Position numbers and translations under genes: made by a program. Below the pieces are notes generated by a model. That model searched no databases and was not told where the DNA came from. It worked only from the letters and a program-made list of their open reading frames with translations. A stretch of 41,138 bases of DNA from Planctomycetia bacterium (GTDB lineage: Bacteria; Planctomycetota; UBA8108; SXIK01). Of this stretch, positions 32,392 to 37,276 are shown piece after piece (the stretch's first letter is position 1; every line of letters begins with the position of its first letter). Location: NCBI GenBank assembly GCA_005772855.1, contig SXIK01000236.1, positions 1-41,138 on the forward strand. The letters are read 5' to 3'.

Positions 32392-33147
32392 CTACTCCGC
32401 GCCGGGTGGAAAGAAGAAGGGCTCCTGAGGTTGATCCTCCCCGCGCTCGGAAGCGCGTTCAGGAGGGGGGTTGTGGGCCTCGAACTGGTTGATGACCCGT
32501 CGAGCATAGGAAGCGAAGTAGCTCCTGGGGTATAGCTTCACGACGCGGCGGAGCAGGGCGATCGCAGAGGCAGGGTCCTTCTTTTTCTCGACCAAAATGC
32601 GTCCAGCCTTGTAGAGCAGTTGGCTGTGTCCGTAGCCGGTTTGTATCCAGTCCGCCGCCTTTCTATATTGGTAGACGGCGGAGTCGAGGAATCCCATGCT
32701 CGCATAGAGATCGCCAAGGCGCTCATGAGCCGTTGAACTCGTGGGATCCATGGCGAGTGCCTCCAGGCAGGTCTGAATTCGTTGCCACTCCTGCTTCCCG
32801 GTCAAGGGAGTTCCTGGCGGCGCTTGCCGTGAGCCCGGCGAGGTGATCTTTTCTATCAGAACACCGCAATAGTGCACGATCAGGTAGGCCGCAACTGGCA
32901 CGTAAAACATGGAGGCGCCGAAGAAGAGGAAGAACTGGGAGCCGCGGTGGAAGGCCCCGAGGTTTTCGAACTCGATCGTGCTTCCCAGGGCCGCCACGAA
33001 GCCTGCCAACAGCAGCACCAGCCCCGTGAGGCAGTGAAACAGGGGCTCGGCGCGTAACCGCGCAGCGAAATAATAGACAACGCTCAGGAACGCCCCGAGG
33101 AGGCCGTAGATGCCAGCCACAATTACATAGAGCACCGCTTCGCTCAT
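32392..33147 (-). CDS. Membrane protein with three transmembrane helices and TPR-like domain
   Basis: The ATG at 33147 gives 251 residues; an in-frame ATG at 33201 would add 18 untypical residues. Membrane segments are visible at about 5-28, 36-56 and 72-95. A cytoplasmic or periplasmic helical part follows with TPR-like repeats (about 130-200: AHERLGDLYASMGFLDSAVYQYRKA; SAIALLRRVVKLYP). The tail is acidic and Pro-rich, ending PFFFPPGAE. I do not recognise the family. It stands alone on the minus strand, convergent with serA. No ribosome-binding site is evident. Confidence 0.65.
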   Translation of the reverse strand: MSEAVLYVIVAGIYGLLGAFLSVVYYFAARLRAEPLFHCLTGLVLLLAGFVAALGSTIEFENLGAFHRGSQFFLFFGASMFYVPVAAYLIVHYCGVLIEKITSPGSRQAPPGTPLTGKQEWQRIQTCLEALAMDPTSSTAHERLGDLYASMGFLDSAVYQYRKAADWIQTGYGHSQLLYKAGRILVEKKKDPASAIALLRRVVKLYPRSYFASYARRVINQFEAHNPPPERASERGEDQPQEPFFFPPGAE

Positions 33148-33302: not shown

Positions 33303-33331
33303 TTGACGCTCCCAGCGTTTCGTCCTACTCT
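33303..33331 (+). promoter_or_regulatory. Candidate promoter of the structured RNA
   Basis: TTGACG, a 17-base spacer and TACTCT. The same -10 sequence and spacing occur in the candidate HDOD promoter at 36165-36193. Initiation would fall near 33338. Confidence 0.4.
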
Positions 33332-33337
33332 TCATTG

Positions 33338-33628
33338 CCAACGACGGCACGAACGAGAAGAACTGAAGAGAAAATAGAGTTACGGGCGGCCGGGGCCGTA
33401 GCACCCTCCATGGAAGAGGACCCCGGCAGCCCATTTTGAAATAACAAGAGATCAGCCGGACGCGCGCCCCGGCTCAAGAGAACAGGCGCGGGTTGGTGAG
33501 AGAGGGGAAGGACGTCGGATAACCCGCTGACAGGAGTTCAGCCGGATTCAGCCGTCCTGTGAATAATTAAACGCCCCCAACCCACGTTCCATTGGCCCGC
33601 CTCCACTTTGGAGGCGGGCCTTTTTTTT
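33338..33628 (+). ncRNA. Candidate structured noncoding RNA, about 290 bases or shorter
   Basis: A plus-strand transcript must end at the terminator at 33594-33628, yet both neighbouring genes lie on the minus strand and no plus-strand protein gene is seen. Stems that can be drawn: AGCCGG/CCGGCT (33454-33459 with 33469-33474); GCGGGTT/AACCCGC (33488-33494 with 33521-33527); and ACAGGA/TCCTGT (33530-33535 with 33555-33560), whose loop holds two TTCAGCCG copies. CGCGGGTTGG (33487-33496) can instead pair with CCAACCCACG (33577-33586), so two folds compete. The stretch CGCGGGTTGGTGAG resembles a piece of E. coli 6S RNA recalled from memory, which makes 6S RNA a possibility but no more. It does not look like tmRNA, RNase P RNA or SRP RNA. 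The 5' end is uncertain. Confidence 0.5.
33594..33628 (+). terminator. Intrinsic terminator
   Basis: GGCCCGCCTCC and GGAGGCGGGCC form a perfect 11-base-pair stem with a five-base loop (ACTTT), followed by eight T. On the minus strand no T-run follows the stem, so it terminates plus-strand transcription. Confidence 0.92.
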
Positions 33629-33699: not shown

Positions 33700-34830
33700 T
33701 CACACCTCGAGTTCCTTTGGATATCGGTTCAAGTTGCGGCAGCCCGTCTCCGTCACCACGACCACATCTTCGAGGCGTACGGCTCCGACGCCAGGGTAGT
33801 AGAGACCCGGCTCCACCGTGATGACTTGGCCTGTCTTGATCTGGGTCTCGACTCGGCCTATTTTCGGCCACTCGTGGATGTCGAGGCCAAGGCCGTGTCC
33901 TGTCGAGTGAATGTAGCCTGATTTTTTGATTCCGACGTCCTCGTTGGCGTTGCCCCGCAACTTGAAAAGCTTTGCGACTTCGCTGTGCACTTTTTCCCCT
34001 TCGGCTCCATCCTTGATCAGGGAGAATGCCAGCTCCTGGGCATCGAGCACGTCCTTGTAGAGTTTTTTCACCGCAGCGCTAGCTTTGCCCCGGACGACGG
34101 TGCGAGTCATGTCCCCCCAGTACCGAGTCCGGATCGACCGGGGGAAAATGTCGAGGATGATTGTCTTGTGCGCCGGCAGAGGTCCGCTTCCGCGATGGTG
34201 TGGGTCGGCCCCTTGGTCGCCTCCGGCCACGATGGTGTTTGAGGCTTGGCATTCCCGCTCGAGGAGAAACTTGTGGATTTCCAGGCGCAACTTCTCCGAG
34301 GTGAGTTCTCGGCCCTCGTAGAAGAGCCAGTCTCCCCGGATCTCGCTTCGCTTGAGGATGGAGACCGCGAGGTCGGTTGCCGCCTCGGCATGACGCTGGG
34401 TCTCCTCGATGGCGTGGATCTCCTCGGCGGTTTTGATCGTACGTGACGGGAAAATGGGGTCGTCTTTCAGCCGAAGCTTGTAACCCTTCTCTCTGAGTCG
34501 TTCCGCGTGGCCAAATGGAAAGCTCAGGGGGACTGTGAGCTGCTTGATCCCTTTTTCCTTGAGGTAGAGGTCCAGCACGCTTGTCAGCCGGGCAGGCTCC
34601 TTCGCCGCACGCAGAGCCTCCTCGTACGGCGTTGTCGATACGATCTCATCCACGCGAGCTTCCGAACGGCCCCTGCCGTATTCAAGGTCGTTCAGCAGGA
34701 AGATTTTTCGGCCGTCAATCTCGAGGTAGATGACAGTGACCGTGACCAAAAATCTCGTTCTGTAGTAGAGGTCGGCACTGGCCTCGCTGTCGGCGATGAT
34801 GAGCAAGTTCTCGCTCTCACTCTGGCTCAC
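33700..34830 (-). CDS. M24-family metallopeptidase (Xaa-Pro aminopeptidase-like)
   Basis: This pita-bread enzyme removes N-terminal residues next to proline. The GTG at 34830 is preferred because a G-rich site (GAGGGGGG) lies 10 bases before it; a GTG at 34860 inside the E2 gene is the alternative. The product has 376 residues. Residues about 1-140 form a creatinase-type N-domain; the C-terminal part carries all five metal ligands: Asp in IILDIFPRS, Asp in YWGDMTRTV, His in STGHGLGLDIHE, Glu in ITVEPGLYYPG and Glu in VRLEDVVVV. It starts just after the E2 stop, so the two genes share a transcript. The biological link between them is not known. Confidence 0.88.
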   Translation of the reverse strand: MSQSESENLLIIADSEASADLYYRTRFLVTVTVIYLEIDGRKIFLLNDLEYGRGRSEARVDEIVSTTPYEEALRAAKEPARLTSVLDLYLKEKGIKQLTVPLSFPFGHAERLREKGYKLRLKDDPIFPSRTIKTAEEIHAIEETQRHAEAATDLAVSILKRSEIRGDWLFYEGRELTSEKLRLEIHKFLLERECQASNTIVAGGDQGADPHHRGSGPLPAHKTIILDIFPRSIRTRYWGDMTRTVVRGKASAAVKKLYKDVLDAQELAFSLIKDGAEGEKVHSEVAKLFKLRGNANEDVGIKKSGYIHSTGHGLGLDIHEWPKIGRVETQIKTGQVITVEPGLYYPGVGAVRLEDVVVVTETGCRNLNRYPKELEV

Positions 34831-34846
34831 TGGACTTTCGCCCCCC

Positions 34847-36106
34847 TCAAAAGGCTCCACTCTCCAGCTGACTCTTCACGTGAGCCATGAAACGATCGGC
34901 GACTGCGCCGTCGATGAGCCTGTGGTCAAACGAGAGGCTCAGGAACATCATGGAGCGAATGGCGATCGAGTCGGTTTCCTCCAGCACCACGGGGCGTCTT
35001 GTGACGACCCCCATACAGAGTATCGCTACTTGAGGCTGGCTAATGATTGGAGTTCCGATCAGGCTGCCGAAGACTCCCGGGTTCGTCACGGTGAAGGTTG
35101 CGCCCTGAACTTCTTCGGGCTTGAGTTGTTTGGACCTTGCTCGCTTCGCCAAGTCGTGCACAGTCTTCGCCAGGTCCTGCAAGGCCAGTTTGTCAGCTTG
35201 GCGGATGACCGGCACGATCAGCCCGTCGTCGAGTGCAACGGCCACCCCCAAGTTGATGTCTCCGTGGTAGCGCACGTTTTTGCCTTCGATCGATGCGTTG
35301 AGCTTGGGGTGATTGCGGAGAGCGCGGGCCACAGCTTGAAGCACAAAGGACAGGTAGGTGAGCTTCGTTTTGCCCTGCAACTCATGGCCGCTGGCATGAG
35401 AGCCCTTGAACGCACGAACCGCTGACATATCCACCTCGAAGATACTGCTCACGTGGGCGGAGGTTCGGCGGCTCGCCACCATGTGCTCGGCGATGCGTTG
35501 CCGGATCACGCTCATGGGCTCCAGATGGTCCTCCTCGGGAGAATGAGCCGTTGAAGGTGGCATCCGCGCAATATGTTGAAGTAGATCTTCCTTGGTGACG
35601 CGACCGCCAACACCCGTGCCCGAGATCGTCTTGAGGTCGATCCTGTGCTGGGCTGATAAACTTCGAACTAGAGGGGATGACAACTCTCGCAAGCGATCTG
35701 CACTTGTTCGGGGAGGCTTGCCGCTGGCGGCTCGTTGTGGATCGTCTTGGCTCGTTGCGGCAACAGGCTCAGAGGGTCTTGTAGGGGCGTCAGTTCCCCT
35801 GACCGGCGCTTCTTGCTCGACAGTCTCTTTCTCTTGAGTTTCCAGGAAGCAGACGACCGTGTGGACCGGAACAGTCTCCCCCTCATTCACCAGAATTTTT
35901 ACAAGGCGGCCGCTACAAGGGGCGGGCACCTCGGTATCCACTTTATCAGTCGAAATCTCGAAAATCGTCTCGTCCCGTCGGACGTTGTCGCCGACTTTCT
36001 TGTGCCATTTAACAACGGTCCCCTCGGCAATGCTTTCGCCCATCTGGGGCATATGTACCGGCTCTTCCGTCGTCAAGTCCCGATCATCCTCTCCTTCAAG
36101 TGGCAT
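34847..36106 (-). CDS. 2-oxoacid dehydrogenase E2 (dihydrolipoyl acyltransferase)
   Basis: E2 is the core of a 2-oxoacid dehydrogenase complex and moves the acyl group from E1 to CoA. The ATG at 36106, about 30 bases after a good minus-strand promoter, gives 419 residues; an ATG at 36052 is possible. The order is a lipoyl domain (about 16-90, lipoyl lysine K55 in EISTDKVDTEV), a Pro/Thr/Glu-rich linker, an E1/E3-binding domain (about 140-180, SSPLVRSLSAQHRI and GTGVGGRVTKEDLL) and the catalytic domain ending with SFDHRLIDGAVADRF (H395, D399). The MPQMGESIAEGTVVKW start resembles oxoglutarate or branched-chain E2 more than pyruvate E2, but the substrate is not certain. No E1 or E3 gene is in the window. 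Confidence 0.93.
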   Translation of the reverse strand: MPLEGEDDRDLTTEEPVHMPQMGESIAEGTVVKWHKKVGDNVRRDETIFEISTDKVDTEVPAPCSGRLVKILVNEGETVPVHTVVCFLETQEKETVEQEAPVRGTDAPTRPSEPVAATSQDDPQRAASGKPPRTSADRLRELSSPLVRSLSAQHRIDLKTISGTGVGGRVTKEDLLQHIARMPPSTAHSPEEDHLEPMSVIRQRIAEHMVASRRTSAHVSSIFEVDMSAVRAFKGSHASGHELQGKTKLTYLSFVLQAVARALRNHPKLNASIEGKNVRYHGDINLGVAVALDDGLIVPVIRQADKLALQDLAKTVHDLAKRARSKQLKPEEVQGATFTVTNPGVFGSLIGTPIISQPQVAILCMGVVTRRPVVLEETDSIAIRSMMFLSLSFDHRLIDGAVADRFMAHVKSQLESGAF

Positions 36107-37178: not shown

Positions 37179-37276
37179 TGGCGGGAGTGCATGGGAATCG
37201 AACCCACCTACCGTGTTGTTCGCACGGCACCAAGGATTTGAAGTCCCGGAGGCCCACCAGGTGCCTGTTCACTCCC
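37179..37276 (-). tRNA. selC: Selenocysteine tRNA, anticodon UCA
   Basis: The 98-base gene, with encoded GCCA end, has the tRNA-Sec layout: acceptor GGGAGTG/CACTCCC with a possible eighth position, an anticodon loop CTTCAAA carrying TCA (at 37241-37239) in a GGACTTCAAATCC context identical to E. coli selC, a long variable arm (TGCCGTG/CACGGTA, seven pairs with one G-U), and a T-arm GTGGG-TTCGATT-CCCAT. The length and long extra arm separate it from a UGA suppressor of normal shape. It is charged with serine, converted to selenocysteine by SelA and delivered by SelB to UGA codons with a SECIS element. None of those genes is in the window. Confidence 0.95.

Follow-up and report, generated by a model that had tools for sequence, protein, structure and literature searches.

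The nearest analogue in logic of the RNA described here is the alpha-r14/NfeR1 ("cuckoo") group of alphaproteobacterial small RNAs, which combine an ultraconserved, unpaired C-rich motif with stems of highly different sequence and act independently of Hfq; their motif, CCUCCUCCC, lies in three hairpins and is complementary to the Shine-Dalgarno sequence (PMC10746234). A second point of comparison is Ms1 RNA of Actinobacteria, a lineage-specific RNA of a group without 6S RNA, which was traced by synteny because its sequence diverges fast (PMC9130861). 6S RNA itself (RF00013) is a single-copy RNA that occurs in other planctomycetes, and its absence from some members of the phylum has already been reported, according to a passage of PMC5673643 that cites Wehner 2014.

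The locus considered here lies in a planctomycete genome of 5.0 Mb in 244 contigs, within a 41,138-nt stretch of DNA that was analyzed as a whole (the window). It would encode an RNA of about 290 nt on the plus strand (291 nt for 33338-33628), whose start near 33338 was placed from the position of the promoter. Like the alpha-r14/NfeR1 RNAs, it has a conserved C-rich motif and stems that are free to vary, and it occurs in a class in which no Hfq was detected. Unlike them, it has a single, unrelated 18-mer, which lies beyond the folded body and adjoins the terminator; CCUCCUCCC is absent from the window RNA sequence, and Rfam gave no homology. With Ms1 it shares a lineage-specific occurrence, a group without detectable 6S RNA, and a fast-diverging sequence, but no sequence relation between the two is known.

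Results

A stand-alone RNA gene in ten genomes

The preliminary description of the window had suggested an undescribed, lineage-specific RNA with its own promoter and terminator. Comparison across ten genomes, which share promoter, motif, and terminator, backs this suggestion, and the absence of a plus-strand protein gene was confirmed as well: no conserved plus-strand protein gene covers the region, and no conserved open reading frame runs across the RNA on that strand in the window and the homologs compared. An Rfam covariance search of the RNA region, 6S included, matched no family, and a literature search for the 18-mer motif found no report of it. The features of the locus are listed in Table 1.

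Table 1. Features of the RNA locus in the window.
Feature	Position	Strand	Basis
Promoter, TTGACG-N17-TACTCT(T)	33303..33332	+	conserved in homologs; blastn match in G007
Promoter boxes, TTGACG and TACTCT, N17 between them	33303-33308 and 33326-33331	+	sequence
Variable folded body, start to motif	33338..33572	+	lengths and minimum free energy (MFE) in homologs
GGGTTGG, able to pair with CCAACCC at 33577-33583	33490..33496	+	sequence; in G001, shorter form in G007
Local hairpin AGGACG/CGTCCT, carrying the doubled TTCAGCCG	33509..33558	+	sequence
Invariant motif CCCCCAACCCACGTTCCA, proposed contact site	33574..33591	+	identical in 10/10 homologs, directly 5' of the terminator region
Intrinsic terminator: 12-bp stem, 3-nt loop, eight T (GGCCCGCCTCCA-CTT-TGGAGGCGGGCC at 33594-33620, T run at 33621-33628)	33594..33628	+	sequence; kept in homologs
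TPR membrane protein gene	32392-33147	-	
M24 peptidase gene	33700-34860	-	

The promoter that had been noted at 33303 is present and is kept in relatives, even though it fails a strict scan for Escherichia coli sigma-70 promoters. The form TTGACG-N17-CCTACTCTT was found in 7 of the 10 homologs; two genomes of family f4 have TTGACG with a T(T/C)TACTCTT box, and G003 has a weaker promoter of the form CCTATTCT. The terminator that had been described, a stem followed by eight T, is likewise real, but its stem has 12 bp and not the 11 first given; at four of the nine consensus pairs of the hairpin, both partner bases vary among the homologs.

A search for further members in sister families by promoter alone was not productive, since the matches inspected precede apparent protein genes. 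Sites of the form TTGAC-N17/18-CCTAYTCTT were also seen, by eye, directly 5' of apparently orthologous genes for anti-sigma-type ATPases in the window genome (C157:30031, L045) and in G001 (C524:3979, L044), and these promoters of the same type hint at the -10 consensus of the class. In G001 (L019), tandem repeats of about 45 bases (GACACTTCTTGCAAGCGCCACCCCGGTGGACATGAGCGCCGCCGC) extend from about 230 nt upstream up to the RNA promoter.

Distribution in the phylum

A blastn search with 351 bases of the region as the query hit G001 and G003 once and G007 twice. The matches form two separate conserved islands, the promoter (89%) and the 3' end (80-82%); in G007 the two were matched separately, and the body between them could not be aligned. 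Common to the 3' matches, and unchanged, is AACGCCCCCAACCCACGTTCCA. When 392 genomes of the phylum were scanned for the motif pattern, with three mismatches allowed, 19 gave a match and 10 had the exact 18-mer. All 10 are of the window's class: eight belong to the window's order and two to another family (f4). The RNA is found, in one copy each, in 10 of 29 class genomes, a comparison that rests on incomplete assemblies. Two genomes of the same order, G005 and G006, have no RNA, and their assemblies also lack the neighboring serA gene.

A covariance model built on the motif and the terminator ranked the same 10 genomes at the top (E of 1e-6 or lower); neither the 16 genomes examined from family f5 nor the one from f6 yielded a convincing member. 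A match in G101 (E of 4e-6) was not accepted: it directly follows a protein gene, has no promoter, and matches the motif poorly. Other, weaker matches outside the class, where inspected, resemble ordinary terminators or unrelated sequence and do not have the full plan.

Genomic neighborhood

In the window, the RNA lies between a divergent gene for a TPR membrane protein and a convergent gene for an M24 peptidase. Outside the window, neighboring genes were named by sequence resemblance and were not each scanned against Pfam. The order is fabF-serA-TPR-RNA in the window, serA-TPR-RNA in G007, fabF-serA-RNA in G003, fabF-RNA in G010, and TPR-RNA-serA-fabF in genus g3, where serA is convergent and ends about 10 nt after the T run. 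In the eight genomes with readable flanks, the RNA lies beside fabF, serA, or both (genes of fatty-acid and serine synthesis), with the TPR gene as a further syntenic neighbor in part of them; this count leaves out G012 and also G001, in which the RNA is close to the end of the contig and has an ABC-F protein gene on its other side.

This arrangement bears on whether the RNA could be a cis element, that is, the leader of a downstream gene or the 3' untranslated region of an upstream one. The upstream gene does run in the same direction in G003 (serA) and in f4 (fabF), and the promoter of G003 is the weaker one. Against this, the window, G007, and genus g3 have a divergent upstream neighbor, and 9 of the 10 loci have a promoter of their own. 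In the window and the four g3 genomes, the closest gene downstream runs convergently, so the RNA is not a leader there, and we regard a cis element as very unlikely overall.

From the ten-genome comparison, the RNA gene is strongly supported by its promoter, terminator, neighborhood, and 18-nt motif and by its freely evolving body. The plus strand at 33338-33628 is almost certainly an independently transcribed non-coding RNA gene as judged from these features, and it is most likely the window's member of an undescribed family confined to one lineage of uncultured Planctomycetota. Elsewhere in the window, at 37183-37276 on the minus strand, lies a selenocysteine tRNA (RF01852, 66 bits), so this planctomycete probably makes selenoproteins.

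The invariant 18-mer

The strongest feature of the RNA, the invariant CCCCCAACCCACGTTCCA, had not been singled out in the preliminary description, which noted its CCAACCCACG portion merely as the arm of a stem. The motif occurs once per genome in the 10 genomes, each time with a promoter-like site upstream and a hairpin plus T run after it; in f4 it precedes an additional hairpin. Its invariance was partly selected for because membership was defined by the motif. The first members were found by search with the whole region, without the motif as a criterion, and the conserved promoter, terminator, and neighborhood are independent of the motif-based choice. The motif was absent from the viral contigs searched.

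Could the motif instead act at the level of DNA, or belong to a short coding sequence (WNVGWG on the minus strand, or small open reading frames on the plus strand)? The minus-strand frame through the motif is indeed open in several loci. However, all bases, third positions included, are identical in 10 genomes while the flanking codons share nothing, the motif keeps a constant position just before the terminator, and the plus-strand frames are not conserved. Such a reading is therefore exceedingly unlikely.

Predicted folds leave most of the motif single-stranded in G004 and G008 and part of it open in G002 and G009; in the other members, those of f4 and the window among them, part of it is paired. 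We also looked for complements of the motif in the ten genomes. The 10-mer complement GTGGGTTGGG occurs 66 times, against 67 for a reversed control, and is not enriched; a 12-mer complement is found at about chance frequency; and none of the complementary sites sampled pointed to a target conserved between genomes.

A folded and variable body

The body measures 107-311 nt in the homologs and varies in sequence. The whole 291-nt RNA folds better than its shuffles (z of -2.5; 2/200), with much of that stability coming from the terminator; the window body alone gives a z of -1.5. Body-only MFE lies below the shuffle mean in 9 of 10 homologs, and 8 of the 10 reach a z of about -1.5 or lower.

A long-range stem competing with local ones had been proposed between CGCGGGTTGG (33487-33496) and CCAACCCACG (33577-33586). 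It can form, since 9 of the 10 positions can pair, with one C-A mismatch, but as a competing structure it does not exceed chance: 51 of 300 shuffles equaled the best pairing of body and motif in the window. The idea that an upstream complement systematically sequesters the motif was rejected, because the duplex energy is not above chance in most homologs (ranks of 14 to 257 of 300 shuffles). The doubled TTCAGCCG was found as described, with copies at 33537-33544 and 33547-33554, and a hairpin equivalent to the one that carries it (GGACGG/CCGTCC) can form in G001.

In genus g3 (four genomes), unconstrained folds all reach the same three-way junction, consisting of a closing stem and two hairpins; after it come a linker that holds the motif and then the terminator. 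Support for this fold amounts to three distinct sequences because G002 and G004 are nearly identical; the three are identical at about 59-70% of aligned positions. Any two sequences show few compensatory changes in the body (0-2), and 6-11% of the shuffles of each sequence reach the same shape. Bodies of other families take other shapes, and we therefore claim no common body fold. The bodies of G010 and G012 (L026 and L027) contain a nearly invariant block, TTGACCGGAAGTCGG...CCGACTTCCGGTTGTTT, which forms a long hairpin around a conserved AGGGTCCCATGGTGTGATCGGTTCGAGTGTTGGTGGTCC and is unlike any other family member.

Relation to 6S RNA

A diverged 6S RNA had been offered as one identity for the locus, with a resemblance to E. 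coli 6S RNA in one stretch; we found no support for that resemblance. RF00013 did not match the window region even at an E of 10, nor any of the nine homologous loci up to an E of 1. The same model reported 6S RNA in 62 of 149 planctomycetes sampled, 37 of them above the curated cutoff, and no 6S RNA above noise in the 29 class genomes. A planctomycete-specific model (R2), built from 22 planctomycete 6S sequences, recovered six left-out 6S sequences at 45-103 bits (one of these, L129, is a near relative of a model member). It gave no matches at the ten RNA loci up to an E of 10, and its best score in the class, 18.9 bits, was not convincing. Strong common blocks of planctomycete 6S RNAs (L053-L060, L124-L143) are CCTCTGC, GAACCGAT, GCCCACCT, GGGTTC, and ACGGCA. 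The Rfam 6S model also seems to report several planctomycete 6S RNAs on the opposite strand.

These results weigh heavily against reading the locus as a polymerase-inhibiting 6S RNA that has diverged strongly. Neither the genome nor the class has a detectable 6S RNA, so the job could be vacant, and whether this vacancy is real or apparent, it is the circumstance that speaks for such an RNA. Yet neither model matched, even though the planctomycete model recovers left-out 6S RNAs; all members are predicted to fold into branched shapes in which the 3' motif stands apart, and not into a rod with a central bubble; and planctomycete blocks such as GAACCGAT and ACGGCA are not shared. We consider a 6S identity extremely improbable.

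Discussion

The RNA has the attributes of a trans-acting small RNA: its own promoter, no conserved open reading frame, and an intrinsic terminator. It is most likely regulatory, with the conserved C-rich segment as a putative contact for RNA pairing, which we favor, or for a protein. A contact site is expected in the motif because the motif is the only invariant part of the RNA and has a fixed place before the terminator hairpin. We hypothesize that the body serves as a folded 5' domain that would protect and present the 3' motif; that the motif, predicted to be largely open in the best-sampled genus (g3), would be the functional contact; and that it would pair with G-rich sites in other RNAs and so change how these are translated or degraded, with no part for Hfq. 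None of the 29 class genomes has a detectable Hfq, so the mechanism must be Hfq independent.

Action of the motif by base pairing in trans is put forward tentatively, with a little less than even confidence. Seeds of small RNAs are usually shorter than eighteen invariant bases, which counts against pairing, and, given that the genomes show no enrichment of motif complements and that no shared target emerged, pairing is favored just slightly over protein binding. The RNA might instead bind a protein, the single-stranded CCCCCAACCCACGUUCCA by the terminator being recognized by a lineage-specific or general RNA-binding protein that the RNA would sequester or scaffold. Eighteen invariant bases without a covarying partner, the lack of an excess of complementary sites in the genomes, and the lack of detectable Hfq in the class all fit such a role, but no candidate protein was identified, Hfq being the sole one sought; we view protein binding as possible but rather doubtful. 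It is also conceivable, if improbable, that the RNA acts as a new global regulator, perhaps one that would bind polymerase or ribosomes through its invariant 3' motif, much as with Ms1 in Actinobacteria, in a class that seems to have lost 6S RNA and shows no detectable Hfq; sister families of the class (f5 and f6) that lack both 6S RNA and this RNA speak against that role. The reading that we prefer as a whole, a stand-alone, lineage-restricted RNA with a folded 5' domain and a motif that would pair in trans without Hfq, is to our minds about evenly balanced between right and wrong.

For the class, the result would add an RNA family with a clear candidate contact site to a lineage without detectable Hfq or 6S RNA, and a class-wide loss or extreme divergence of 6S RNA can be mapped inside the phylum. 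Eight small RNA families have been counted for the Planctomycetes-Verrucomicrobia-Chlamydiae group (PMC9029176); with so few catalogued there, a new family matters.
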